From contig JAQUPD010000001.1 in NCBI GenBank assembly GCA_028716785.1, positions 73,114 through 137,113 of the forward strand: 64,000 nucleotides of DNA, read 5' to 3'. This document shows positions 5,850-63,176 of the stretch, one piece after another. The first letter of the stretch is position 1. Every line of letters starts with the position of its first letter. A program made the translations under genes and the position numbers. Below the pieces are notes generated by a model that saw nothing but the letters and a program-made list of their open reading frames with translations, had not been told where the DNA came from and did no database searches. Origin of the DNA: Fidelibacterota bacterium (GTDB lineage: Bacteria; Fidelibacterota; Fidelibacteria; Fidelibacterales; Fidelibacteraceae).

Positions 5850-8033
5850 TTACCTGACAATAATGATTTTACGGGTTGCTGTTTCTCCCTTACGGTATAA
5901 AATTTCGCCCGTAAAGGGATCTTCCTGGTCTTCCGTCACTTCAAAGTGTGCAATATAGATACCACTTACAACAACTTGACGTGAAGAGCTCAGTGACTTC
6001 CAGGTTTCATCACCGCTACCATCATCATGATAAATTGTTTCAATCAAATCACCTCTTTCAGAAAAGATACGAATAATACAGTTCCCTGGAATATTCAAAA
6101 ACATAATTTTATCATCTTCACCGGTATATTGAAGTTGTTCAGCTCGAATGTTAAAAGGATTTGGAACAACGCGAATTGCCTTCAAACTTTCACCCGCCTG
6201 ACGCTTTAAATAGGCAGGTTCTGATGTTTTCGTATAAAAGCGAGAACTTTCAAGGGGACCTGTTGGGTTAAATTTACCATCACTATTAAGACTACCGTCC
6301 GAGTAAGCCGTGATATAATAATAATATGAAAAACCGCGAGCAGGACTTTCATCTTGATAATCTTGAGTACCTGGGGGCAGGTCAGCAATGAGATCAAAAA
6401 TAGTATCTGGTTTTGTAATAGCACGATAAATTCTATAACCTCCAAAATCGCTTTTACGATCATCAGGTGAGGGAGTCCATGTCAAATCAATACGATCTCC
6501 CTTTGATTCCACATTAAAAATCTCTGGGGGTCTTGGTGCTTGAGGAATTTGATATCCAGAAGAAAAATTTCTCAATGCCCTGCTCATTGTAAGCAAAAAG
6601 GAATCTCTTCCTGTAAATACCCACGTGTTTTTATAGATATCTTTATCAGTTGTTGTTGAACCATTTGGAAGAACAAAGGGTCCTTTATCATTTGGATTTT
6701 TATATGCTTGTAGCCAGCGGCGCCCAATATCTTCACACATGGGTCTACTTAACCCATTAATTGCTTCTACTTCAACAATTTTAATGGAATCTCCTGGGGG
6801 AATATCAAAGGGACCATAGGTAATCCAGATGTTTGTGCCACCGCCATCCCCATGAATCGTTGAGGGGTCAACTCTGTCTATAATGGATGTAACATTGTCT
6901 TCATAGAAACGGTTACCGCCCCCCTTTCCACTGCCGCCATAGGGAACACCGGATAGATGTTCGTATGCTAGAATCATTTTATCTTGATCAGCCGGTTTTA
7001 AGTCACCCGTTGATGGAAATGTATCTCCCGCATGCCATCCCATCATGGTTGGTTGTTGTGGATCATCGCTGTGATCAGACGCTGATTTATCCACATGTAA
7101 AACTCCCGTTCCTACATAATGAGGTGCTGTTAAACGTCCATTGGCTGTTGCATGAGGTCCACCAATATTATCATATGCCCACCCATCTATCTGACCTAAA
7201 AAGGAATACCCACAACGAATCCATTCTAACTGGCTAATGGGTGTATCCTCGGTAAGTGTTGCTATATTGGTATAATTATAAGGCATGGGATTAGGATCAT
7301 TGGGTCTAAACTGAGTTCTGCTTACCCATGAATATTGTCCCCATGAAATACCGCCCGCTCCCAGGCTCATATAGGCATCTCGACTGCATGAATATCGAGT
7401 TCCCCATCCTACGCGAAAGTCTTTAATCGTTTCATTTAGCACCCTTTCACTATCGTAGCCAACATATCCCGTATTTGTAAAAACAAGTTCTTTAATGAAA
7501 TAGTTATCGTGATACTGTTGGCTAAAAGCATACACACGCATCGTCATGGTAATGCCGGCAGTTGTATTTACAATATTTTCAACAATCCGATCTGGAATCT
7601 GATTAGGATTAATTGTGTCGATTTCTCCTTCATAGATTGTACTCAGATTGTTCCCATCAACATAGATAGTAGGGGGCATAAATTTTGCTGTTTGCTTTAA
7701 ACGAACAGGAAAAAGAGAGATATCCACATTGGCTTGTACAATAGTCGAAGCCCACTTTTCCCAATGATAGCCAGAGGCATCGGTAAAATCATCAACACCA
7801 AGCCAGGCTCTTTGGATTACATCATTATCCTGATAGTTATAATCTGCAGGCCAAATCATTCCTTCATAGTAGACATTATTCCAGGCTCGTTTTGAAAAGT
7901 ACGAATTAAAATGAGTCTGCAATGAACCAATTCTTACATATCGCCTGTCTGTAGCAGCAACCTGTGAGAAAGCTTGTCCTACCACACAAAAAACCAGAAT
8001 AATAATTGTCGTAATTTTTAACGTATATTTCAT
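5850..8033 (-). CDS. secreted protein with FN3-like domain and FlgD-like C-terminal region (copy B)
   Basis: RPPEIFNVESKGDRIDLTWTPSPDDRKSDFGGYRIYRA (FN3); C-term RVVPNPFN...IRIFSERGDLIETI...VVVSGIYIAHFEV; paralog of 13041..15317. Confidence 0.75.
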   Translation of the reverse strand: MKYTLKITTIIILVFCVVGQAFSQVAATDRRYVRIGSLQTHFNSYFSKRAWNNVYYEGMIWPADYNYQDNDVIQRAWLGVDDFTDASGYHWEKWASTIVQANVDISLFPVRLKQTAKFMPPTIYVDGNNLSTIYEGEIDTINPNQIPDRIVENIVNTTAGITMTMRVYAFSQQYHDNYFIKELVFTNTGYVGYDSERVLNETIKDFRVGWGTRYSCSRDAYMSLGAGGISWGQYSWVSRTQFRPNDPNPMPYNYTNIATLTEDTPISQLEWIRCGYSFLGQIDGWAYDNIGGPHATANGRLTAPHYVGTGVLHVDKSASDHSDDPQQPTMMGWHAGDTFPSTGDLKPADQDKMILAYEHLSGVPYGGSGKGGGNRFYEDNVTSIIDRVDPSTIHGDGGGTNIWITYGPFDIPPGDSIKIVEVEAINGLSRPMCEDIGRRWLQAYKNPNDKGPFVLPNGSTTTDKDIYKNTWVFTGRDSFLLTMSRALRNFSSGYQIPQAPRPPEIFNVESKGDRIDLTWTPSPDDRKSDFGGYRIYRAITKPDTIFDLIADLPPGTQDYQDESPARGFSYYYYITAYSDGSLNSDGKFNPTGPLESSRFYTKTSEPAYLKRQAGESLKAIRVVPNPFNIRAEQLQYTGEDDKIMFLNIPGNCIIRIFSERGDLIETIYHDDGSGDETWKSLSSSRQVVVSGIYIAHFEVTEDQEDPFTGEILYRKGETATRKIIIVR

Positions 8034-49908: not shown

Positions 49909-51138
49909 TTATTCGTATCGAAGGGCTTCGATGGGATCCAAGCGAGCTGCTTTAACTGCAGGATAGGTGCCAAAGATAACCCCAATTACAGAACAAACAA
50001 CCACGCCAATAATAGCCCATTGAATAGGAAAAACACCGCTGACTTTCATGGAAAGTGCAACCAAATTTCCTGCCAGAACTCCCAATATAATTCCAATCAA
50101 AGCCCCTATTTCTGTAAGCACCAACGCTTCCAGGAGAAATTGATTACGGATATCCCGTTTTCTTGCACCAATACTTTTACGGATTCCAATTTCTCGTGTT
50201 CTTTCTGTAACGCTTACAAGCATGATATTCATAATGCCAATGCCTGCCGCCAACAGAGCAATAGAACTAATCAATAAAGCTGCAACTTTTATAGCTCCTG
50301 TAATCTGATTAAATGTATCAATAAGAGAAGTATTTGAAACAACTTCAAAATCATTTTCTTCTGTAAGGGGGACTTCTCGTACAAGACGGAGATGAAAAAT
50401 AATTTCCTCTTTCACATCTTCAAAGTGTTCCATATCTATCACTGAAATTGAGTAGCCTAAAGATGTCCAGCGGTTTGCAAACATTTTAAGATGAGTTGTT
50501 AAGGGAAGAATCACCAAATTATCTTCAGATTGACCAAAAATAGACCCTTTCCGTTCCAGAGTTCCTATCACTTGAAATTTTACACCGCGAAGTGTCACTG
50601 TTTGTCCTAAAGGATTGTACTGAGGCATAAGAACGTCAATCACATCCTGACCTAGGATAATAACATTGCGCATTTGTTCCATATCGGTTCGACTGATCAT
50701 TCTGCCACTTTCGAGAAAATATCCTGAAGAAAATTCCCATTCAGGTGTAACACCTTGTATAATAACACTATTTTTTGTTTGTTTATCTTTAAACTTTATT
50801 GGATCCCCATTATGCCAATTTTCAGCGGATATCATTGCTGGCCCCGAATAACGCTCTTTCAATTTTAAATAGTCATCATAGGTTAAATTTTTCCGATTTC
50901 GATATTTCCAATGAGCACTTCCTCCTACTTGAATGGCTGGATACTTCTGAATGTAAAATGTATTGGTTCCAAGGATATTTAAATTTGATTCTACAGATTT
51001 TTGTAAAACATTGATAGCCGTCATCACGCTGATAATCGAAAAAACACCGATAATCACCCCAAGAAGTGTCAAAAAAGACCGAAGTTTATTTTGTCGAATT
51101 GAATTAATCGAAGAGATGAAAACTTCATGGAGATTCAT
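49909..51138 (-). CDS. MacB/FtsX-like ABC permease
   Basis: LRSFLTLLGVIIGVFSIISVMTA; GIGIMNIMLVSVTERTREIGIRKSIGARKRDI; C-term LDPIEALRYE. Confidence 0.93.
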   Translation of the reverse strand: MNLHEVFISSINSIRQNKLRSFLTLLGVIIGVFSIISVMTAINVLQKSVESNLNILGTNTFYIQKYPAIQVGGSAHWKYRNRKNLTYDDYLKLKERYSGPAMISAENWHNGDPIKFKDKQTKNSVIIQGVTPEWEFSSGYFLESGRMISRTDMEQMRNVIILGQDVIDVLMPQYNPLGQTVTLRGVKFQVIGTLERKGSIFGQSEDNLVILPLTTHLKMFANRWTSLGYSISVIDMEHFEDVKEEIIFHLRLVREVPLTEENDFEVVSNTSLIDTFNQITGAIKVAALLISSIALLAAGIGIMNIMLVSVTERTREIGIRKSIGARKRDIRNQFLLEALVLTEIGALIGIILGVLAGNLVALSMKVSGVFPIQWAIIGVVVCSVIGVIFGTYPAVKAARLDPIEALRYE

Positions 51139-51186
51139 ACAATTCCTTTTTCACTCTTGAGGATAAAGAGAGTGAAAGTTAACACA

Positions 51187-52404
51187 TTATTCATAGCGAA
51201 TTGCCTCTATCGGATTGAGTCTGGCCGCCTGATTCGCAGGAATAATTCCAGAGAGAACACCTGTAAGAATCGAGACCAACAGGGATATTACAACAAGTCC
51301 GAAAGATAAATTTGCAACAAAAAATCGTTGAACAACTCCCACAAGACCAACGGTCAGCAAAATACCGATAATACCTCCTATGAGCGATATAATCACGGCT
51401 TCACTAAGAAACTGAAAAAGAATAATGCTTTTTTTAGCTCCCAAGGCCTTTCGAATGCCAATTTCTTTGGTCCGCTCTCTCACGCTTACAAACATAATAT
51501 TCATAATACCAATCCCACCAACAATGAGGGAGAGAGCCGTTATACCAAGTCCGACAGCACGAATGGCAAAGCGAATATTAGCAAACTGTTGGCGGAAGGC
51601 TTCTTGTTGATTAATAGCAAAATCATTTTCATCCCTAGGTTTCAATTTTCGTAGTCCCCGCATAATAAATGTGAGCTCTTCTTTTGCTTGTTCAACGGGT
51701 ATGCCATCTTTTGGTTTTACACTAATTGATATCCCCCGACGTCGCCCATAAAGCATTTGAAAGGCTTTTAGAGGAACTATCACAATATTATCCATACTCA
51801 TTAGGCCTAAAAACTTACCCTGTTGAGCAATGACGCCAATAACTCTGAATTTATTTCCCCGAATGGTAATTTCTTTTCCCAGAGGATCCTCATTGGGAAA
51901 AAGTGCTGTTTTAATATCATATCCAATGACAATGACACGACTGCCATACCGGCTTTCCGGTTCAGAAAAAAATCTTCCAGATTCCAATTTGAGGGCACTG
52001 ATATAAGCTTCCTGCCAGGTAGTTCCGTTAATCTCAACACCTTCAACAGTATTTTTTTTATATTTCACTTCATCCGATCGGCTTGAAGAAGGTGTTGCAA
52101 AAGCAATTGATGAAGCTCTTTCCAGAATTTGTTCGGCATATTCCTCCTTAATTTCAGGACGGTTTCGATATTCCCACCACTCATCGTTAACCATAAACCA
52201 AGGATATTTTTGAACATAAAGGACATCTTGTCCCATTCCCTCAATGCTACTTTCAAAAACTTGATCAATTCCAGAAATGGCAGTTCCCATAAGAGAAACA
52301 GATAAAATGCCAATAATGATTCCAAGCATCGTTAAAAAAGCTCTGGTTTTATTTTGAAGAATGGCCTTAATAGCCATTACAACACTTTCAAAAATCACGC
52401 CCAA
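51187..52404 (-). CDS. MacB/FtsX-like ABC permease (paralog)
   Basis: TRAFLTMLGIIIGILSVSLMGTA; GGIGIMNIMFVSVRERTKEIGIRKALGAKK; C-term LNPIEAIRYE. Confidence 0.93.
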   Translation of the reverse strand: MGVIFESVVMAIKAILQNKTRAFLTMLGIIIGILSVSLMGTAISGIDQVFESSIEGMGQDVLYVQKYPWFMVNDEWWEYRNRPEIKEEYAEQILERASSIAFATPSSSRSDEVKYKKNTVEGVEINGTTWQEAYISALKLESGRFFSEPESRYGSRVIVIGYDIKTALFPNEDPLGKEITIRGNKFRVIGVIAQQGKFLGLMSMDNIVIVPLKAFQMLYGRRRGISISVKPKDGIPVEQAKEELTFIMRGLRKLKPRDENDFAINQQEAFRQQFANIRFAIRAVGLGITALSLIVGGIGIMNIMFVSVRERTKEIGIRKALGAKKSIILFQFLSEAVIISLIGGIIGILLTVGLVGVVQRFFVANLSFGLVVISLLVSILTGVLSGIIPANQAARLNPIEAIRYE

Positions 52405-53130
52405 TTAACTATTTCCTTTAGGTGTTGTTTCATCCCGATCAATTTTACCATCCAAAAGATGGACAATGCGATGGGCATGTTGGGCAATTTCTGTTTCATG
52501 GGTAACAAGAATAATGGTATTCCCTTCATCGTGAAGTTTATCCATGAGTTTCATAATTTCGCGTGATGTTACGCTGTCCAGATTTCCCGTAGGTTCATCA
52601 GCAAGAAGAATTGAGGGATTATTAACGAGTGCGCGGGCAATTGCCACGCGTTGCCGCTGTCCACCTGAAAGTTCATTAGGTTGGTGATGCATCCTATCCT
52701 CTAAATTCACTTTGCGAAGTGCTTCTTTTGCCATTTCAATTCGCTCTTTTTTATGAATACCGGCATAAATTAATGGAAGTTCTACATTGTGTAAGGCTGT
52801 AATACGGGGTAAAAGGTTAAATGTTTGAAAGACAAACCCAATTTTTTGGTTTCGAATAAATGCCAGCTCATCTTCAGAAAGTTTACCATTTCCATTTTGG
52901 CCAATATTATCATCATGGACTGTTTTTCCATCCAAAATATAGGTCCCTGAGGTAGGTGTATCTAAGCACCCGATGACATTCATAAGGGTTGATTTTCCTG
53001 AGCCGGAAGGTCCCATAATAGAGACATACTCATTTTTTTCTACCATTAAATCGATACCTCGAAGGGCATGAACCGCTACAGCACCCACTTGATACACCTT
53101 TGTTACATTTGTCAATGCCAATAAAGCCAT
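52405..53130 (-). CDS. ABC transporter ATP-binding protein (MacB/LolD-like)
   Basis: [59 protein letters not shown]. Confidence 0.95.
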
Positions 53131-53160
53131 TCTTAGTTCCTTAAAATTTCGCGTGTCAGT

Positions 53161-54360
53161 TCAAAATGCAGGTTGCACAGTATTTTTGCGGATATACATA
53201 CCTGTTTGTAAATCCCGACTTAGAGCCTTATGATTCCCAATCACGATTTCATCTCCCTCCTCAATCCCCGATGTTATTTGAAAGAGGTCTTGACTGCTAA
53301 GTCCTATGGTAACAGGAACTGCTTTTACCGTATCTTGGTCTACACGAAAAACAACTTCAATCATTTCATCCCCTTTTCGTTTCCCAAGTGAAGGAATTCC
53401 AGAAGAAAGACTATCTTCTTTTTCACCTGTAAAAACCATGTTAGCAGGCCGAACTGTAACACTTTGAATAGGGACAGCAATGGCATTTTCAACTTTATCA
53501 GTCAGAATTTCTACGGTTGCACTCATACCGGGTCGCATCTGATTGGGAATTTCAAGCATTTTTACAAGAACCGTAAAATAGGTTACCGCCGTTTGTGTAC
53601 CTATCCCCGTAGATTGTGCCAAGTTAGCAATATCTGTCACAATTCCTTTAAATGATGTATCAGGAATGGCATCAATTTCAATATCCACAGAATCACCTAA
53701 AAAAACCCGAACAACATCATTTTCATTCACATCCACTTCAACTTCCATCTTGGCAAGGTCTGCCACAACCATGATAATATCCGCTTGAAATTGGGAACCC
53801 AAAGCTATTTCACCAGCTTCCTTTCGTACTTGAATAATCGTTCCATCCAGAGGCGAGACAATGGTCGTTTTTGCTAAATTATCTTCTGCCTGTTTTAAAT
53901 TGGATTCTGCTTGCGCTAAATTACCTTGAACCCTTTCATATTCCGTAAGTGTTTGATCCAAATCGGCCTGACTTAAATTGCCAGATTCAAAAAGAGCTTG
54001 CGCACGTTGTAAATCTTTTTTGGCTTTTTCAAAAGCAGCTTTCGTGGAGGAATAAGTCGCTTCTGCACTCGTTACCGCTGCTTCATACCGGACTTTATCT
54101 AACTCTGCCAAAATTTGACCTTTATGAACTTTTTGCCCATCTTTCACATTCATTTGAACAATTTCACCTGCAACGTTTGCACTGATATCAACTTGCATGA
54201 CAGGTTTAATACGTCCACTTGCTGAGACTTTTTCTTCAACAGTATGACGCTTAACAACAGCTGTTTGTACTTCTATCACTTCTTCTTTATTCATCCTTAG
54301 ATTGAAATACACAATAACTGCAATAACTATGACAACAAGAGGGATAATCCACTTTTTCAT
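53161..54360 (-). CDS. periplasmic adaptor subunit (MacA/HlyD family)
   Basis: VSASGRIKPVMQVDISANVAGEIVQMNVKDGQKVHKGQILAELD...TTIVSPLDGTIIQVRKEAGE. Confidence 0.93.
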   Translation of the reverse strand: MKKWIIPLVVIVIAVIVYFNLRMNKEEVIEVQTAVVKRHTVEEKVSASGRIKPVMQVDISANVAGEIVQMNVKDGQKVHKGQILAELDKVRYEAAVTSAEATYSSTKAAFEKAKKDLQRAQALFESGNLSQADLDQTLTEYERVQGNLAQAESNLKQAEDNLAKTTIVSPLDGTIIQVRKEAGEIALGSQFQADIIMVVADLAKMEVEVDVNENDVVRVFLGDSVDIEIDAIPDTSFKGIVTDIANLAQSTGIGTQTAVTYFTVLVKMLEIPNQMRPGMSATVEILTDKVENAIAVPIQSVTVRPANMVFTGEKEDSLSSGIPSLGKRKGDEMIEVVFRVDQDTVKAVPVTIGLSSQDLFQITSGIEEGDEIVIGNHKALSRDLQTGMYIRKNTVQPAF

Positions 54361-54361
54361 C

Positions 54362-55612
54362 TTATTTTCCTAATAATTGATTAATGTTTGCTTCTGTTAT
54401 TTTTGTATTGTAGCGTGCCTGAACCAGTTGACTTTTTGAAGAAAGGACGGAGATTTGAGCATCTAACTGATCCAAAATAGTTCCTGCACCTAATTCAACT
54501 TGCTGTGTGATAAGATTATAATCTCGCTGCGCAGATTCTAAACTTAAAGTATGTATCTCTGTCAATTTCTGATACGTTTCCAGAACCTGATACAATTCAT
54601 CTAAACGAGCAAATACCTTATCAACACTATTTTTATACTGAATTTCCAATGCTTTTAAATCAATTTCAGCCTTTTGCTTCTCTATCTTTCGATGAAATCC
54701 TTCAAAAAGAGTAATATTCGCTGATACGCCAACAGATTGAGATTTCATTGTTCCTCCATCATCATCCCGATAGGAATAAGTATAGTCACCTGCAATGGTT
54801 GGAAGATAAGACTCCTTTTTCATTTTAACTGATAATTTTTGAAGATCCATTTGCTTTTGAAGGGTTAAGAGTGAATAATTGTTCTTTGTTATCATCTCTC
54901 GCGCTTCTTCAAGTGTCGGAAGGGGTAAGTGATCGGGCTCGAGGGGTTGAAGGGTTAGTTCATCACTGGGATCACGCCCCATTAAGAGATTTAACTCACG
55001 CAATAAACTACAATTCCGCTGTTCTTCATTTATAAGTTGGGTTTCAAATTGTCCTTTTTGAACCTTTACTTTTAAAAGATCAGATTCGGTGCGAACCCCC
55101 AAATCCATCATCGTTTGGACTCTCTTAATGTTCTCTTCTGCAAAGCGAATGTTTTCCTTATAAACAACAATTAATTCATTAGAAGCCAAAATACTAAAAT
55201 AATAATTAATTACCGATGTCTCTAACAAGGATATGGCATCCTGTAAAGTGAGTCCTGCAATTTCCTCAGAAATTTTTGCCGCCTTTACACCTGAAAAAAG
55301 TCCGGGATAAAAAACATTCTGACGAATCGTCCCAGAAAGAGTGTATCCTGAATTTTCAGTGGTTATGATTGAATTGTCGGTATGAGAATAACTCGTTGAT
55401 AAACGCCCACTGACCGATGGATATAAATCTGAAGCGCTCTGTGTCTTGATTAAGCTTGTTTTTTGTGTTTCCAGTTTTGTTCTTAATAACTCACTATTTT
55501 CCCTCAATGCCAATTCCTGACATTCCTGAAGCGTTATAACGGGACCTGCATTAAGCCATGACGTTATTACCATTAGAACAAAAAAAACAAGTCCCCATTT
55601 TTTCCTTTTCAT
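54362..55612 (-). CDS. TolC-family outer-membrane efflux protein
   Basis: Signal peptide; ITLQECQELALRENSELLRTKLE; GVRTESDLLKVKVQKGQFETQLINEE; ELGAGTILDQLDAQISVLSSKSQLVQARYN. Confidence 0.93.
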   Translation of the reverse strand: MKRKKWGLVFFVLMVITSWLNAGPVITLQECQELALRENSELLRTKLETQKTSLIKTQSASDLYPSVSGRLSTSYSHTDNSIITTENSGYTLSGTIRQNVFYPGLFSGVKAAKISEEIAGLTLQDAISLLETSVINYYFSILASNELIVVYKENIRFAEENIKRVQTMMDLGVRTESDLLKVKVQKGQFETQLINEEQRNCSLLRELNLLMGRDPSDELTLQPLEPDHLPLPTLEEAREMITKNNYSLLTLQKQMDLQKLSVKMKKESYLPTIAGDYTYSYRDDDGGTMKSQSVGVSANITLFEGFHRKIEKQKAEIDLKALEIQYKNSVDKVFARLDELYQVLETYQKLTEIHTLSLESAQRDYNLITQQVELGAGTILDQLDAQISVLSSKSQLVQARYNTKITEANINQLLGK

Positions 55613-55671
55613 AATCCATTTATCCTATGTTTTAAAACTGACACTGTCTTAATTATAAAGTTGTCCATTAT

Positions 55672-56406
55672 TTAGGCAATTATTGAATATCCCTGGATTA
55701 TCACTGTAAAAATAGCACCAAGAAGCCAAATAATACCTGTTAAAATAAAGGCTTTTTTGGGTGAGTAATGATAGATAACCTTAAAAGCTATAATCCACAA
55801 GATCCATTTCCAAATTTTAAATATATCCACTTGCATGGCAAGGCGAAACCACACATTCCCTAAATCAAAATCAGGGAAAAACATGGCTAAACTTGTATGT
55901 ACCATCATTGTTTGTTGGGCAAGCATAATAGGGACTTTAACAATGCTTGCCAAAACATCCACCATACTTATATAAAGCGTTGTTGCTAATAACGTTATGT
56001 ATTTTGCATAGCCCCCTCCAAAAAAATTCCCTACAAAAAGATAAATTACTGCAATAAAAAAAGCAGAAATAATGGGCGTTAATCCTCCCATAATAAGATT
56101 TTGAATAGGCACTTTGTCAGGAGATAACCGTTGAAGCATTACTTCTTTTTGTTGATCAGTTAAATTATCTAACCGTGCTATCATCTGAGTACTTTCTTTC
56201 ACTTGAATAGGATGGGTAAGCTGGATTGTTACCATAGATGCAAGAACTAAAAGTAAAACAGGAAACCATAAATCTTTCCACGTAATCTTTTCCCCCAATG
56301 ATGAAAATGTCTTTTCAGGATTAAAAAAAACATTCCAAACACGTTTAACTGACTCTGTTATCTTATGACCTTGTTCTACCATCTGTGAAGCTCCTATTCC
56401 TTGCAA
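55672..56406 (-). CDS. Yip1-like multi-TM membrane protein
   Basis: VFFNPEKTFSSLGEKITWKDLWFPVLLLVLASM... then several TM segments. Confidence 0.6.
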   Translation of the reverse strand: MQGIGASQMVEQGHKITESVKRVWNVFFNPEKTFSSLGEKITWKDLWFPVLLLVLASMVTIQLTHPIQVKESTQMIARLDNLTDQQKEVMLQRLSPDKVPIQNLIMGGLTPIISAFFIAVIYLFVGNFFGGGYAKYITLLATTLYISMVDVLASIVKVPIMLAQQTMMVHTSLAMFFPDFDLGNVWFRLAMQVDIFKIWKWILWIIAFKVIYHYSPKKAFILTGIIWLLGAIFTVIIQGYSIIA

Positions 56407-56468: not shown

Positions 56469-57020
56469 TTACATAAAATCTAAATCTTCAAATCCTGTAC
56501 TGTCATAAAAAAAGATATTTTCGATATTTATATTATAAAAATTCATTAAATAATATATTAAATTTTGAAGTGAATTCTTTTGTTTTTTGGGAAGCCATTC
56601 TCGCGGAGGGAATTTTAAACTTGAAATGCAGCAGATATGAATATTTGTATCTTTGCCCTGGCGTGTTTCTGAAAAGTAAAGAGCATCACGCCCCTCATAG
56701 ATTTTCCCTTTTCGATCAATGATAAAATGATATGTCACGTCAGGATACTGCAGCCGAAATATATGATAATGTTGAAGTGAAGCAGGAGAGATCTGATCGC
56801 TGAATCCAGAATAATGAATACATATTCCATCAAATGTTTCTCTATTACGTTTTGATTTTTCAAGAGGAATCGTATGTATTGGTTCAATGGCATGCCACCC
56901 TTCACGAGAAATAATAATTGGCGTTTTAGGGTGTTTTTCACAAGCAATACAAAAGAACAAAATACTTATAAGGAAGTAGACATTACTGGTTCGTTTTGAA
57001 CGTTTTTGTATAATATTCAT
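56469..57020 (-). CDS. amidase_2/PGRP-fold lipoprotein (C-terminal ligand region degenerate)
   Basis: ATG at 57020 gives MNIIQKRSKRTSNVYFLISILFFCIAC lipobox; ICIHYSG, YHFIIDRKGKIYEGRDA and NIHICCIS are amidase_2-like. Confidence 0.72.
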   Translation of the reverse strand: MNIIQKRSKRTSNVYFLISILFFCIACEKHPKTPIIISREGWHAIEPIHTIPLEKSKRNRETFDGICIHYSGFSDQISPASLQHYHIFRLQYPDVTYHFIIDRKGKIYEGRDALYFSETRQGKDTNIHICCISSLKFPPREWLPKKQKNSLQNLIYYLMNFYNINIENIFFYDSTGFEDLDFM

Positions 57021-57579
57021 ACGCTGTAAGACCAAGTTCATTTAAGTAAAATTCATTGTTAAGTCCCTTCCCATAGTCTATCCCACACCCATAATAGGAA
57101 GCAATTGTAGCAACATCAGGGTAATAGCCAAACTGTTCCTTAAATTCGTCCTTGATAATTTGGCAATACACCGCACTGTAAACAATGTTAGTATCTGGAT
57201 AAGCAAGTCGACGAATAAGCGCTGACCGATTTTTTGAAGGATTAAAAGGTAAAAGATGTGAATAATGACTTTCAATCCACTCGCTCGTAGAAATTTTAAG
57301 TTGAGCAAATCCTACCGAGGCATTAAACCCCATATAGGCTCTGCTATAATCTGCTTTATCCAGATTATTAATATTGTGAAGGCGTTCAGCATAAATAACA
57401 CTAAAATAAACCTCAGGGGATAATGAAAAGTAATGACAGATAGAATCAATCACCTCTTTATAAGATAGCATATAGCGTTCTGTTTGGTAGGCTTTTCTAG
57501 TAGGTTTCAGAGAAAGCCAAAAAATTAAAAAAACACACATCACACCCCCTATTAAAAATCTTTTAGTAATCATTTTCAT
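56983..57579 (-). CDS. lysozyme-like / lytic transglycosylase-like exported protein
   Basis: N-terminal TM/signal; SPEVYFSVIYAERLHN...FNASVGFAQLKISTSEWI resembles SLT-fold E...S.G..Q pattern. Confidence 0.5.
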   Translation of the reverse strand: MKMITKRFLIGGVMCVFLIFWLSLKPTRKAYQTERYMLSYKEVIDSICHYFSLSPEVYFSVIYAERLHNINNLDKADYSRAYMGFNASVGFAQLKISTSEWIESHYSHLLPFNPSKNRSALIRRLAYPDTNIVYSAVYCQIIKDEFKEQFGYYPDVATIASYYGCGIDYGKGLNNEFYLNELGLTAYEYYTKTFKTNQ

Positions 57580-58063
57580 AAAACTTCCTTAGTATTTTTA
57601 AATTTGATTCCAACAACCAGGGATTGGCAGGTTCATAGACAAAAAGATAACGGATTGTATCTGTTGAGTAATAACAAAGAATATTCTGTGAAACATCAAA
57701 ATCTTGAGGAAAATTACGTTTGGAAGTGTACCATTCATTCTCAGAAAGAATACGTTTTTTATTGGCAATCACTGTAAGGGGCGATAGTGGAAAACACTCC
57801 TTTAAATAAGCACAAAAGTATGGAAGTTGTTCATCACTATTAACCAAAAGCAACAATCCTTTGCGAAAATGTATGAGAGACGAAAAGGCTGAATCTATCG
57901 GGGTGTATCCATACATTTCCCATAGTTGCTGAGATTGAATAATATCCCCCATCGATCGTTCTGCGTGAAGATTGACACGAAGTAATTCTTTATTTCGATG
58001 AAGGAGAATCGCGACCCATAGAAAAAGTAGAACGGTAATAAGAAATATAATTCGTTTATTCAT
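57563..58063 (-). CDS. hypothetical membrane-anchored protein
   Basis: N-terminal TM (MNKRIIFLITVLLFLWVAILL); ~166 aa; LLLLVNSDEQLPYFCAYLKECFP could be thioredoxin-like fold without CxxC. Confidence 0.5.
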   Translation of the reverse strand: MNKRIIFLITVLLFLWVAILLHRNKELLRVNLHAERSMGDIIQSQQLWEMYGYTPIDSAFSSLIHFRKGLLLLVNSDEQLPYFCAYLKECFPLSPLTVIANKKRILSENEWYTSKRNFPQDFDVSQNILCYYSTDTIRYLFVYEPANPWLLESNLKILRKFYENDY

Positions 58064-58784
58064 AGTTCCTTTCAAGTGTTTTTATCTCCTCTATACCCAA
58101 AAGGTTCACTTCCTTTTCAAGATGTTCTATACGGTTTTGAAACCTTCGATTTTTCTGGTTATTTTTGACAAATTTCCAATGTGATTTTGGATTGGGAAGA
58201 CCTGCGACCAAAGAGATCATTTCCTCAAGGGTTAAATCTTCAACATCTTTATGATAAAGACTTTGTATTCCTGCAAGAAGTCCAACTGAATCAGGTGACC
58301 ATACAACACAGTTGATGTAGAGTTCAAGAATTTCATCTTTGGTCAAGCACCTTTCAAGAATTAATGCACCTATCATTTCATTGAATTTTACGATGAATGT
58401 TCTTTTTGGAGATCCCCATAGTGTTTTTATCAGTTGTTGTGTTAACGTGCTTCCTCCAATGCGCTGTTCGTTAAACAATGAACCATCAATAACAATTTTT
58501 AGGATCCTGAAAAAATCCACACCAGGATGCTCATAAAAACGGCGATCTTCAGAAACTAAGAGGAGTAAAATCAATTCATCAGGAAGCTGATTTCGGTCAA
58601 TCCATGTTACGGTAACTTCTGAAAGATTATTAATCTCCTTCTGAAGAAAGGGTGACGTTCGCAAACATTGCATGAGTTCCTCCGGCGTAGCATTTTTTAA
58701 GCTGCGCGCTCTTTTAACCCAAATACTACTATTGATAAAAAGTAGACAAACCACAAGCCCAACAATAACCTGTGATACTTTCAT
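58056..58784 (-). CDS. monofunctional peptidoglycan glycosyltransferase (GT51, MtgA-like)
   Basis: SEDRRFYEHPGVDFFRI, GGSTLTQQLIKTLWG, KFNEMIGALILERCLTKDEILELYIN; no transpeptidase domain. Confidence 0.88.
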   Translation of the reverse strand: MKVSQVIVGLVVCLLFINSSIWVKRARSLKNATPEELMQCLRTSPFLQKEINNLSEVTVTWIDRNQLPDELILLLLVSEDRRFYEHPGVDFFRILKIVIDGSLFNEQRIGGSTLTQQLIKTLWGSPKRTFIVKFNEMIGALILERCLTKDEILELYINCVVWSPDSVGLLAGIQSLYHKDVEDLTLEEMISLVAGLPNPKSHWKFVKNNQKNRRFQNRIEHLEKEVNLLGIEEIKTLERNYE

Positions 58785-59504
58785 TTACTCAAACACTCTT
58801 TCAAAAACGGCGGTTGTTTTACCTAAACTAACACCCATAATTTTTGCAACTCGTGTTGTTGAAATGATTTTCATAATTTCAAAGGGCCCTTGCTCCCGAA
58901 TCCAAACTTCATCATTCTGACCCACAAGGGGTGTTGATTCCATAGAAATGTGCCATACATGACAAGGAATATCTTCATTTTGGATTCTCAACGTATCTTG
59001 TCCTTTATGTTCAAAGAGATATGAAACCGTTTTACCATTGTAAAGATAGAGATCAACTGACATTGTTTGACTCGGTTCATAATATAAAAGCTGCACAAAC
59101 CGTGCATAAGAAGGAAATGCACATATATCAAAAGGAGTTTGCATAGAATATGATTTATCATCCATTCTTTTTTTAACTAAATATTGTCTATTCTCATAAT
59201 CAACCTTGACCTCTTCACCAAGTGCAGGAATTTTAAACCATAGGGGAAAACCCGTTTCTTTGCAAAATATCACATCAACACCACCAAGGGCAGACGCCGA
59301 ATATACTTCTTGATAACGAATACAAGCCACGGAGTCTACAAGGGTATCCTTAAAGGTTATAGTCAACATGTTCATGCTATTTTGTTGTCTAAAAACCCAT
59401 GGCGTATTCATGGAATTCTTGGCAACATCAGGACTCGCAAAAGAATAGCTAGCAATAAGTATTATTATTAAGATAACATTATGTTTTACAGGTAGAACTT
59501 TCAT
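58785..59504 (-). CDS. hypothetical exported protein, DUF3108-like
   Basis: Signal peptide; GFPLWFKIPALGEEVKVDYENRQYLVKKR...; RBS AAAAGGAAGTACAATG. Confidence 0.5.
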   Translation of the reverse strand: MKVLPVKHNVILIIILIASYSFASPDVAKNSMNTPWVFRQQNSMNMLTITFKDTLVDSVACIRYQEVYSASALGGVDVIFCKETGFPLWFKIPALGEEVKVDYENRQYLVKKRMDDKSYSMQTPFDICAFPSYARFVQLLYYEPSQTMSVDLYLYNGKTVSYLFEHKGQDTLRIQNEDIPCHVWHISMESTPLVGQNDEVWIREQGPFEIMKIISTTRVAKIMGVSLGKTTAVFERVFE

Positions 59505-59551: not shown

Positions 59552-59576
59552 TGGGAGAGCCACCTTGGCTCTCCCA
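59552..59576 (-). terminator. strong intercistronic hairpin 3' of the GG-leader peptide gene (partial terminator or mRNA stabiliser)
   Basis: TGGGAGAGCCA-CCT-TGGCTCTCCCA: perfect 11-bp stem, 3-nt loop; no long T-tract on the minus strand. Confidence 0.65.
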
Positions 59577-59591: not shown

Positions 59592-59759
59592 TTAGTCACA
59601 ATAGCGATAAATTAGTTGTGCCGCGATATTGATGACCATTCCTTGTGCAGTAACAATCCCGTACCCTAAAGCAGCAATACCTGCTAAGCATGCTAGATAA
59701 GATGCAGGTAAGTAGCCACCAGCATGCTCTTTCATTTCTTGTTCGCTAAGTTCACGCAT
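59592..59759 (-). CDS. double-glycine leader peptide precursor (class II microcin/bacteriocin-like), not in supplied ORF track
   Basis: Translation by hand: MRELSEQEMKEHAGG|YLPASYLACLAGIAALGYGIVTAQGMVINIAAQLIYRYCD*; RBS GAAGGAGATCTAACATG; 1 nt after upstream stop; C39 exporter in same run. Confidence 0.85.
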   Translation of the reverse strand: MRELSEQEMKEHAGGYLPASYLACLAGIAALGYGIVTAQGMVINIAAQLIYRYCD

Positions 59760-59760
59760 G

Positions 59761-60285
59761 TTAGATCTCCTTCTTTTCTTGTTTCTGGTTGTTCCCCGGG
59801 AGACACTTTAACAATTCCCGGATATTTCTATCACCGCGCAGTGAATATATATGATGATTCTCTTGATTATAAATAAAGCTAATAGGTAACGGGGGATCAC
59901 TAAATAATGCATATGCTGTGCTTATTTCTATAATACCTATTTTAATCCGTGGATCCTGCCGAATCGCATCCCATGTTTCATAAAATGAAGAGGTAAATAA
60001 GGTTTTATCCGTTGTAAATAAACCATATTGGTGATCGGGTAATAACATGGTCATCTCATTTATGTGGGTTAAGTATTGCAGACAAAAGGGACAATAAAGT
60101 GAAAAAAGAATAACTACTTTATACGTTTGTGGATCCGGGACAAAAACTTCTGGACCCGAAGGAGATATATATGTAAAAGATGAAAGGTCTTTACACGGTT
60201 TTTCAATACGAATAACTGCTAAAATCATTACAACACTTAAAGCAAACACCCCAATTAATATCACCTTTTTCAACCATCTTCTCAT
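59761..60285 (-). CDS. membrane-anchored thioredoxin-like (TlpA-type) protein
   Basis: N-terminal TM; TYKVVILFSLYCPFCLQYLTHIN with CPFC motif; LPISFIYN cis-Pro-like region. Confidence 0.72.
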   Translation of the reverse strand: MRRWLKKVILIGVFALSVVMILAVIRIEKPCKDLSSFTYISPSGPEVFVPDPQTYKVVILFSLYCPFCLQYLTHINEMTMLLPDHQYGLFTTDKTLFTSSFYETWDAIRQDPRIKIGIIEISTAYALFSDPPLPISFIYNQENHHIYSLRGDRNIRELLKCLPGNNQKQEKKEI

Positions 60286-60289
60286 TTAT

Positions 60290-60958
60290 TTATACCATAA
60301 AAATTTCATAAAAAATACCTAAGCCCCAAAGCAAAACAATACTTAACCAACGAGCAAGAATAAGAGGCCCTATGATTTTTTTTACCTTTATTCCTGTCCA
60401 AATCGTTATTATAAAAGCAACTAAAATCATCCACATGCCTTCAAAAATATTTATAGCATTGAGAAGACGATTCAACATAGGATGAAATGAAAAAGAAAAT
60501 GCAGAACTGAGTGATAAAGGGACAATAAGGATGTTATTTGTAATGTTACTAGAAGAGTTTTCTAGAAAAAGAGGGAAAATTTTTGAGATATCTTTAAGCA
60601 CCATCATACCAAAAACAGTCATAATAACATAAAAAACTTTTTTAAACGGAATTTCTAGTTGCCATAAAAGAAAAAAAAGATGAAGAATTAGAGCCATGAA
60701 CAAGGTACGACACAAGATTAAGAGGGGAATTAAAAGAATAGAAATATATGTCATATCTTGTATTCTTGCAAATATCAGATCAATATAGACGGGGGAAAAC
60801 TGATCTCCAAGAAATTGTTCGACCGTTTCACGCGTTGTAAAATGATCTTGATAAAACCAAAGTGTAATCATAGACAAAAGGCTCCACAAACCCCAAAAAA
60901 CTGACCAATGAACTGTTTGTAAATTTTTTAAAGCATTTCGATAGACACTTAGAACCAT
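60290..60958 (-). CDS. multi-TM membrane protein, Yip1-like or putative immunity/accessory
   Basis: Internal ATG (MVLSVYRNALKNL) at 60958 starts just after the exporter stop at 60963; several TM segments. Confidence 0.65.
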   Translation of the reverse strand: MVLSVYRNALKNLQTVHWSVFWGLWSLLSMITLWFYQDHFTTRETVEQFLGDQFSPVYIDLIFARIQDMTYISILLIPLLILCRTLFMALILHLFFLLWQLEIPFKKVFYVIMTVFGMMVLKDISKIFPLFLENSSSNITNNILIVPLSLSSAFSFSFHPMLNRLLNAINIFEGMWMILVAFIITIWTGIKVKKIIGPLILARWLSIVLLWGLGIFYEIFMV

Positions 60959-60962
60959 TTTT

Positions 60963-63038
60963 TTATCCTGCTGTTTCTTTATCCAAAGACACCACGTCAC
61001 TGGCAAAATTAGAAATTTGGTGATCATGACTAATTATGATCACCGCGTGATTTTCTGAGTACATTTTGATCCATTGCAGAACCCAACTCTGTGTTATTGT
61101 ATCAAGAGAATTAAATCCTTCATCCAGTATCAAAACATCTGGTTCGTCAAGAATAGCCCGAAGAAGTCCCACAAGTTGCTTTTCACCCCCTGAAAGCTGC
61201 CGATATCCCTCTCCCAAAAGAGTAAATAAACCCAATTCAAATTTTTGAAAAAACCAGTTAAAATCTCGGAATATTTCTTTTAACCATGTTTTATTTTGAA
61301 CATTTCGCCCCAAAAAAATATTATCCTGGAGTGTCATATTAAATATTTTTACTTCTTGACTAACAACTCCAAAATGGCTTCGATATACCGTCAAATCTAT
61401 TTGCATCACGTGCTTTCCATTCCAATACATATTGCCTTCACTGAAACGATATTGTTGTAAAATAGCATGAATTAATGTTGTTTTTCCTGTCCCATTTTCT
61501 CCAAGAATATGAATCATTGATCCTTTTCGGACTGAAAAACTAACTTTTTCGAAGAGGGGTTGATATTTTGGCCATTGGAAACTGCATTTCTGAATATCCA
61601 GCAAAAAATCAGGACGATCGATTTCTTGTTCTCCTTCAGTCTTTTCAATAGGATGAATCAAAAAATCTCTTAATCGTGTGATAGATTCACGAGCTTCAGC
61701 TCCTTTCAGGGCGTTTTCCATTAACCTGAAAACTGAAGGAATAAAATTCCCTGTCAAAACGAAGGCAGCAAGCCAATTGCCGAATGTTAACCCTCCTTTT
61801 AAAACGAACCTTATTCCTAGCCCTATAAACACAAGCTGAAAAACACCTAGAAAACCTTCAGAAAAAACCAGTATCCGGCTGTTTATCAACCCCACCCTCT
61901 TCCAGCAGTCCAGAAATTTTTTAAATTCGTCTTCATTAAGATGAATAAAATAGGAATGCACATCTAAAGCACTTATTTCATCTAATCCTTCCAAGGTTTC
62001 TATGAGTCCCTGACTAAAAGCAGCCCCTTTTCGTAATGTGGTATTTTGAATTCTTCTCAAGGTGGGATAAAATCCCACCAATGTCCCTCCAAGGAGCAAG
62101 ACAAAAAGAGCAGATATCCCAGCAAGGAGAGGCGAAAAAAAATACATGACAACAATACTGCCCAGAAGAATAAAAAGATCAGAAAGTCCATATAAAAGAG
62201 TAAAATGATAAAAGGATTGAATCCGAAAAAGATCTAAAAATCTGGCAGTCATTTCCCCCGTCGTGAAACGGGAAATAAGCCGATAAGGTAAATGGATAAA
62301 ATGCTTGAAAGATTTACTAAAAATCGTTTGAAAAAGTGAGTTGCCATGACGGAAAAAAAGAACCTTTCGGACATATTCTGCTCCACTGCGGAGAAGAAGA
62401 AAAGCCATGAGAAAAATTAAACTGAGTGTTAAAAGATGCCAATCCTGTTCAGGAACAACACGTTCTGTAACTGTTCTCATTAAAAAAGCTGTGAAAAATC
62501 CTGCTAAAATAGAGATGATGCCACAGAAAAAAATCTGAAGAATCGAATCGGAGTAATCCCGAATATAACCCCAAAACCATGACCAATCTGATCGATAAAC
62601 AGGATCACGATATGGTAATTGATAATCAAAAGTAAGTAATATTCTGCTTTCCCATAGGTCATCTAACTCTTTTTTATCTAACCAATATAAGCCTTTTGCA
62701 GGATCACCAATAAGAAATCGCCCTTTTCGAACTGCATAGACAATCACATAATGGGTAAGATAGTTCGGGAGCTGACAATGAAGAATCACAGGCAAATTAT
62801 CACTTGGATATCTACCCTTATCTATACGATAAGCAGAACAACGAAATCCTAATTTTTCTGCGGCTGATTTAAGATCATACAACCTACAACCTCTGTAATC
62901 AGTATGACATAACACGCGAAGCTTATCCAAATAAGCTCGACCTCCAAAATACCGAATCAAACTTAGAAGACAGGCAGGACCGCAATCCGATGGTTGTTGT
63001 TGCTTTACAATTCGATATTTGAAATAGTTAATAATCAT
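60963..63038 (-). CDS. peptidase-containing ABC transporter (C39 protease + TM + ATPase)
   Basis: VKQQQPSDCGPACLLSLIRYFGG (Q, Cys), LPNYLTHYVIVYAV (His), FLIGDPAKG (Asp); ILGENGTGKTTLIHAI; LSGGEKQLVGLLRAILDEPDVLILDEGFNSLD. Confidence 0.96.
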   Translation of the reverse strand: MIINYFKYRIVKQQQPSDCGPACLLSLIRYFGGRAYLDKLRVLCHTDYRGCRLYDLKSAAEKLGFRCSAYRIDKGRYPSDNLPVILHCQLPNYLTHYVIVYAVRKGRFLIGDPAKGLYWLDKKELDDLWESRILLTFDYQLPYRDPVYRSDWSWFWGYIRDYSDSILQIFFCGIISILAGFFTAFLMRTVTERVVPEQDWHLLTLSLIFLMAFLLLRSGAEYVRKVLFFRHGNSLFQTIFSKSFKHFIHLPYRLISRFTTGEMTARFLDLFRIQSFYHFTLLYGLSDLFILLGSIVVMYFFSPLLAGISALFVLLLGGTLVGFYPTLRRIQNTTLRKGAAFSQGLIETLEGLDEISALDVHSYFIHLNEDEFKKFLDCWKRVGLINSRILVFSEGFLGVFQLVFIGLGIRFVLKGGLTFGNWLAAFVLTGNFIPSVFRLMENALKGAEARESITRLRDFLIHPIEKTEGEQEIDRPDFLLDIQKCSFQWPKYQPLFEKVSFSVRKGSMIHILGENGTGKTTLIHAILQQYRFSEGNMYWNGKHVMQIDLTVYRSHFGVVSQEVKIFNMTLQDNIFLGRNVQNKTWLKEIFRDFNWFFQKFELGLFTLLGEGYRQLSGGEKQLVGLLRAILDEPDVLILDEGFNSLDTITQSWVLQWIKMYSENHAVIIISHDHQISNFASDVVSLDKETAG

Positions 63039-63128
63039 TTCTCTAAAGTATATTTTCTGTAAATATATTATCCTATTTAAAATTATAAATCAACCCAACA
63101 AAATTTCTACAGATTCTCAACTAAACAC

Positions 63129-63154
63129 AAAAACCCGGCCAACACCGGGTTTTT
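63129..63154 (-). terminator. Rho-independent terminator between outer-membrane protein gene and the peptide-export operon
   Basis: AAAAACCCGG-CCAACA-CCGGGTTTTT perfect hairpin with A/T flanks. Confidence 0.85.
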
Positions 63155-63176
63155 AAAAAATTATTTCAAAAAATAA

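Follow-up and report, generated by a model that had tools for sequence, protein, structure and literature searches.

Does a 55-residue reading frame that is absent from the annotation of its genome encode an exported peptide, and would such a peptide be aimed at other bacteria or at the cells that make it? The question is raised by positions 59592-59759 of a 64,000-nucleotide stretch of DNA from an uncultured member of the Fidelibacterota (Marinimicrobia), referred to here as the window. A first-pass annotation had placed there a microcin-like precursor with a double-glycine (GG) leader. Its translation is exact; the frame sits on the minus strand, with the start codon at 59759 and the stop at 59592, and the plus-strand reading of the same positions is riddled with stops. 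The ribosome-binding site that had been proposed, GAAGGAG at a 7-nt spacing, is borne out by the minus-strand 5′ sequence (...GAAGGAG-ATCTAAC-ATG), and the gene is the last of a four-gene operon.

The precursor consists of a 15-residue leader, MRELSEQEMKEHAGG, and a 40-residue core, YLPASYLACLAGIAALGYGIVTAQGMVINIAAQLIYRYCD, with the predicted cleavage site at Gly14-Gly15. The residues originally listed as fitting the GG-leader consensus (L-12, S-11, E-8, M-7, G-2 and G-1) are correct as given. Position -4, which is usually hydrophobic in GG leaders, is His in the window peptide and Tyr in its relatives. The core has a net charge of 0, a GRAVY of 1.04, a calculated average mass of 4225.0 Da (reduced) or 4222.9 Da (oxidized) and only two cysteines, core Cys9 and Cys39, that is, one in the first quarter and the other at the core's end. 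Small residues follow the spacing A26-x3-A30-x3-G34 (A26-x3-G30-x3-G34 in the congeneric genome G001), reminiscent of helix-helix packing in membranes.

The shortness of the frame, together with scores below the cut-offs of the available models, could be taken to mean that it arose by chance and is not a gene. Among all possible starts of 30-120-residue frames in the window, however, two ORFs fit the GG-leader pattern, and only this one does so with a Shine-Dalgarno sequence; 30 Markov-1 sequences of window length gave a mean of 0.37 fits, and 0 with a Shine-Dalgarno sequence. A DNA pattern of the leader, which recovered 7/7 known peptides, has the peptide gene as its only match in its own genome, along with 8 other matches in relatives. 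The peptide is found in all six genomes of the genus, at 54-71% identity to the window peptide, and all six also retain the exporter. Five of these genomes carry it on the exporter's contig, with the thioredoxin-fold gene immediately before it; in G001 the unit is split by a contig break. Wherever it is visible, the order is C39-ABC exporter, membrane protein TM245, thioredoxin-fold protein, peptide and hairpin.

The GG site is invariant in the seven peptides of the six genomes, in which L-12, E-8 and M-7 also fit the leader pattern. Invariant positions include E3, L4, E8, M9, G14, G15, C24, G27, G34, C54 and D55, and thus both cysteines and the C-terminal Asp. Loss of the leader or the GG site in relatives with the exporter had been named at the outset as evidence against the double-glycine reading; both are present wherever a relative has retained the exporter, and the reading is therefore not refuted. 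Among four species (G002-G005), dS of the peptide gene is 0.10-0.45 and dN is 0.007-0.024; for the three pairs compared, dN is 0.007-0.016 and dN/dS is 0.036, 0.037 and 0.14, the last of which is based on very few changes. Purifying selection, syntenic conservation and the cognate exporter contradict a chance ORF, an explanation that conservation already refutes and to which we assign a negligible probability. The 55-residue ORF is thus confirmed as a genuine gene. It is present in a single copy in five of the six species. In G001, a second, tandem GG peptide (L056:1202-1414, minus strand) is 25% identical, with the core FWSFGCILGLNMLLSGVMIDINWHVKAGTAFIRWFCD, two cysteines and a final CD.

The peptide belongs to a block of nine genes that is restricted to one genus among 246 genomes of the phylum. 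A search of the other 240 Fidelibacterota genomes with the peptide profile returned no true relative; its three marginal matches (E about 0.005) can be traced to a stop-containing fragment or to portions of long frames. Searches for the exporter on viral contigs and for the peptide on plasmids yielded nothing convincing. Within the block, the peptide is the most conserved protein: among close relatives it is 96-98% identical, as against 65-94% for its operon and cassette neighbors. For G002 and G004, the values are 96% for the peptide, 87% for the exporter, 75% for TM245, 74% for the thioredoxin-fold protein and 65-74% for the cassette genes.

C39 domains cleave after the GG motif and pass the core to an ABC channel. 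The operon encodes an exporter of this type, of 691 residues (60963-63038, minus strand; PF03412 at 9.6e-31, ABC_membrane, ABC_tran), which is the only C39 exporter in the genome. Named relatives of this protein place the genome in the Fidelibacterota/Marinimicrobia. Its best relative in the PDB is a bacteriocin transporter (4ry2, 4.7e-73), and its C39 site (Cys19, His96 and Asp112) is kept in the relatives, as are the Walker A, signature and Walker B motifs. Immediately upstream of the peptide gene is that of a thioredoxin-fold thiol oxidoreductase of 174 residues (59761-60285, minus strand), anchored by an N-terminal transmembrane (TM) segment; its CPFC motif (Cys65/Cys68) is invariant across the six genomes.

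The remaining operon gene encodes TM245, an orphan membrane protein of 245 residues and 5-6 TM segments (60290-61027, minus strand), which has no Pfam or NCBIfam match and, among the 246 phylum genomes, is restricted to this genus. TM245 is probably Yip1-like. It aligns with the Yip1 protein of a different GG-peptide locus, L081, with an E value of 3.4e-4 over 185 columns, the best score against 36 TM decoys, and the L081 protein is itself a genuine Yip1 protein (PF04893, 3.6e-14). With the five-TM protein of a Flammeovirga plasmid locus, profile comparison gave an E value of 4e-4 and single-sequence scores lay inside the decoy range, so that homology between these two is only suggested. The link to Yip1 runs only through the L081 and Flammeovirga proteins, with one moderate pairwise score, and the TM245 profile gave no signal against the window's own Yip1 family. 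The AF2 model of TM245 is poor (pLDDT 61) and had no match in a PDB fold search; profile searches of the PDB, run for TM245 and for the oxidoreductase, also returned nothing.

A candidate promoter of the operon, recognized by weak consensus evidence only (TAGAAA-16-TATAAT), lies at 63082-63109 on the minus strand, and a hairpin resembling an intrinsic terminator (63128-63155, minus strand) divides the operon from the upstream gene of an outer-membrane protein (OMP). Just 3′ of the peptide gene is a second hairpin (59552-59576, minus strand; MFE -26.1 kcal/mol, z -5.6), which in the window has no U-tract. In G002-G005, a U-rich stretch follows the hairpin at the same position and makes it resemble a normal terminator; there, bases of stem and loop have changed and the pairing is kept. 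In G001 the equivalent hairpin follows the second of the two tandem peptide genes. An Rfam search returned nothing. This hairpin, between the peptide and the five genes that follow, argues for a separate transcription unit.

This set of genes has a tested counterpart. In the locus of bacteroidetocins A/B (Bacteroidales), a C39-ABC exporter and a thiol oxidoreductase accompany a five-TM protein and a peptide with a 15-residue GG leader and a 42-residue core. Full activity depends on each of three genes, those of the TM protein, the peptide and the oxidoreductase; neither accessory gene (five-TM or oxidoreductase) confers immunity, and the four genes together yield active toxin in E. coli (PMC6671954). 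The target of bacteroidetocins is BamA (PMC8546649). Peptides of bacteroidetocin loci have leaders of 15-16 residues, cores of 35-50 residues and at least two cysteines; the window locus has 15 and 40 residues, core Cys9 and Cys39, and the complete four-gene set. It shares with bacteroidetocin loci the C39-ABC exporter, the thiol oxidoreductase, a multi-TM protein, the 15-residue GG leader, a Cys-bearing core of about 40 residues, the lack of a dedicated immunity gene, and a host in the FCB group, and TM245 would be the counterpart of their five-TM protein. The two differ in several respects: the window core has two cysteines rather than four and is hydrophobic and neutral, its gene is last in the operon whereas theirs is second, and the locus lies in another phylum, is chromosomal and genus-fixed, and has a genus-locked peptidoglycan cassette behind it.

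The same gene set was found on two Flammeovirga plasmids (L135 and L138), with the peptides MKKLTFNQMGKINGG-GTCHYQ...MVC and MKKLKTKQMKKVRGG-LIHESC...YYVC. As in the window, these loci combine a five-TM protein, a redoxin, a C39-ABC exporter and a two-Cys GG peptide whose second cysteine is C-terminal, and the window oxidoreductase aligns over its whole domain with a redoxin of a Flammeovirga plasmid locus (E 1.6e-4). Unlike the window locus, they are plasmid-borne, and the core sequences are unrelated, with only the leaders aligning. The presence of the bacteroidetocin gene set both here and on these plasmids lends good support to a GG precursor with a cognate exporter. Directly behind the plasmid peptide genes is a gene for a GLPGLI-family protein (L135:7412-8320 and L138:6828-7628, both plus strand), which is where the window has exp239, the first cassette gene; sequence comparison revealed no link that would make exp239 a GLPGLI protein.

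From the tested bacteroidetocin system we infer the following sequence of events. The C39 domain of the co-encoded exporter would recognize the 55-residue precursor through its 15-residue leader, the precursor would be cut after Gly14-Gly15, and the core would be exported. The membrane-anchored CxxC oxidoreductase would join core Cys9 and Cys39 in a disulfide, and TM245 may aid maturation or export, or protect the producer. The product would be a hydrophobic, net-neutral peptide of 40 residues, closed by a disulfide and released outside the cytoplasm, where its most likely targets would be the membranes or envelope proteins that related bacteria possess. We consider it probable that the operon is a secretion operon of the bacteroidetocin type, with an exported disulfide peptide acting on related bacteria. 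Killing and its target are more conjectural than these steps; by analogy with bacteroidetocins, a membrane-active or envelope-protein-directed antibacterial would be the likeliest product.

The description of the peptide as microcin-like had to be narrowed. Its part concerning a GG precursor with a cognate C39 exporter upstream in the operon holds; the assignment to the colicin-V type does not, as the operon has neither a membrane-fusion protein nor a recognizable immunity gene. Class II microcins such as colicin V (MccV) do share with the window locus the 15-residue GG leader, C39-ABC export, a hydrophobic core and a Gram-negative host, but differ from it in both of these genes and in the presence of an oxidoreductase here. 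Within the four-gene unit no membrane-fusion gene was found, the nearest MacA/TolC-like genes lying in a separate block at 53-56 kb, and no dedicated immunity gene is recognizable in the operon. The HMM check that had been suggested gave no match to bacteriocin models at the curated cut-off; the best, weak matches were to TIGR03949 (15.5 versus 21.5 bits) and PF10439 (14.4 versus 27.1 bits). These class IIb/IIc families (PF10439; TIGR03949, lactobin/cerein) resemble the window peptide in the GG leader, whereas the latter has two conserved cysteines and, except in G001, is a single peptide. In pediocin-type operons that carry a PedC accessory, a thiol-disulfide oxidoreductase likewise adjoins a GG peptide and a C39 exporter; the window locus differs from them in its core and in lacking the pediocin motif and an immunity gene. 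The locus is therefore better stated to be a bacteroidetocin-type operon with an unrelated, two-Cys hydrophobic core in a new phylum.

Taken together, the bacteroidetocin-type reading is favored by the conservation of gene order, leader, GG site, cysteines, Asp and C39 residues, by the low dN/dS, by best matches, albeit weak, to class II bacteriocins and by the divergent tandem peptide of G001. Against it stand model scores below cut-off, the core charge of 0, the lack of a clear immunity gene, and a peptide that is fixed in six of six species and more conserved than its surroundings. Many class II bacteriocins are cationic, and bacteriocins are usually variable and sporadic in occurrence.

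The question of immunity bears on a different reading, in which the peptide is an SDP-type, self-limiting membrane toxin and Yip1-type proteins serve as protection, either TM245 or a nearby block of genes, or both. This block (49909-56406, minus strand) consists of Yip1 (YknW-like), TolC, MacA and MacB genes, with two permease genes, and its make-up is similar to that of Bacillus YknWXYZ. It is headed by a Yip1/YknW-like membrane protein (55672-56406, minus strand; PF04893 at 1.6e-11; NF052650 at 6.4e-19, below its cut-off). According to PMC4887032, YknWXYZ is the SDP efflux pump that protects the Bacillus producer; for this reason, TM245 and the Yip1-TolC-MacA-MacB block are candidates for protection. 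That a Yip1/YknW homologue heads the adjoining MacAB-TolC block and that TM245 aligns over its full length with the Yip1 protein of another GG-peptide locus are consistent with an SDP-like toxin. However, the Yip1 gene, with TolC adjoining where the contig permits, also occurs in sister genera that have no peptide, the five-TM protein and oxidoreductase of bacteroidetocins gave no protection, and the TM245-Yip1 link is the single moderate score described above, to which the window's own Yip1 family adds no signal. We regard such a toxin as quite improbable. That the nine-gene block was simply inserted between Yip1 and the OMP gene upstream could not be demonstrated, since these two genes are on different contigs in sister genera.

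A more serious rival to the bacteroidetocin-type reading emerges from the five cassette genes directly 3′ of the peptide operon, which have the same order in 6/6 genomes and all lie on the minus strand. The first, exp239 (58785-59504), is an exported orphan beta-sheet protein of 239 residues found in the genus only; its AF2 model (pLDDT 80), a predicted beta-sheet shell, has lipoprotein YmcC (2in5) as best, distant PDB match, with an E value of 1.3e-3 and a low TM-score, and the protein may carry a hydrophobic ligand. It is followed by a monofunctional GT51 peptidoglycan glycosyltransferase of 242 residues (58056-58784; PF00912, 2.9e-40), by p170, an orphan membrane-anchored protein of 170 residues again found in the genus only (57563-58075), and by an exported lysozyme/SLT-like protein of 198 residues (56983-57579), which matches PF22115 weakly (0.02) and in which the E of YAERLHN and an ASVGFxQ motif are conserved. 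The last gene encodes an Amidase_2 (PGRP-like) lipoprotein of 190 residues (56469-57041; PF01510, 7.8e-10). Read by eye, this lipoprotein ends in FFYDSTGFEDLDFM, at the place where the last zinc ligands of PGRP-type amidases are usually found; it may lack enzyme activity or serve to bind peptidoglycan.

The exported peptide might thus act on the producer's own population or envelope, in the role of a signal or of a structural peptide governing the periplasmic peptidoglycan cassette. The peptide is the best-conserved protein of the block; the distribution of exp239, p170 and TM245 coincides exactly with that of the peptide (6 of 246 phylum genomes), and their order is constant; the cassette encodes an SLT-like protein and an amidase in addition to a GT51 synthase; and a developmental role for a C39 exporter of a Gram-negative has precedent in HetC, since PMC10986499 describes HetC-dependent peptide export in Nostoc cell differentiation, which is comparable in kind. 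Such extreme conservation, with vertical inheritance and a genus-locked peptidoglycan cassette, is unusual for a bacteriocin, and an envelope or signaling role therefore remains a serious rival. On the other hand, a hairpin that is terminator-like in most relatives separates the peptide operon from the cassette, the block contains no receptor or kinase, the operon has the content of a proven bacteriocin operon, and the divergent second peptide of G001 fits diversification. We give a self-directed peptide a minor but appreciable probability. Bolder, and of low probability in our estimate, is the proposal that operon and cassette form one genus-specific machine, in which the peptide steers localized synthesis and cutting of peptidoglycan in its own or sister cells and does not kill competitors; if true, this would be an envelope-remodeling system controlled by a GG peptide.

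Our literature search found no paper on such peptides in Fidelibacterota, and the bacteroidetocin-type reading would extend this style of peptide secretion from Bacteroidota to a largely uncultured phylum. The contrast between a near-frozen peptide and fast-drifting accessory genes, with a genus-locked cassette following them, makes the alternative of weapon or self-directed signal directly testable, and the 40-mer is small and synthesizable, which allows activity assays with no need to grow the producer.

A different C39 module was observed in three other families of the phylum (L081:8117-8425 and L070:1103-1360, minus strand; L082:7359-7631, plus strand). Here the C39 peptidase stands alone, with an N-terminal TM segment and no ABC part, and the adjoining peptides are small and hydrophobic, with a Sec-type signal, a GG-like site and two cysteines; in L081 and L070, a redoxin and a Yip1 protein also adjoin the module. 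These look like GG peptides that leave by the Sec route and would be trimmed beyond the inner membrane. In L082, the intact signal-GG peptide is preceded by a second copy (6137-6432, plus strand) that is seemingly broken, with its N-terminal half and its hydrophobic C-terminal half in different frames.
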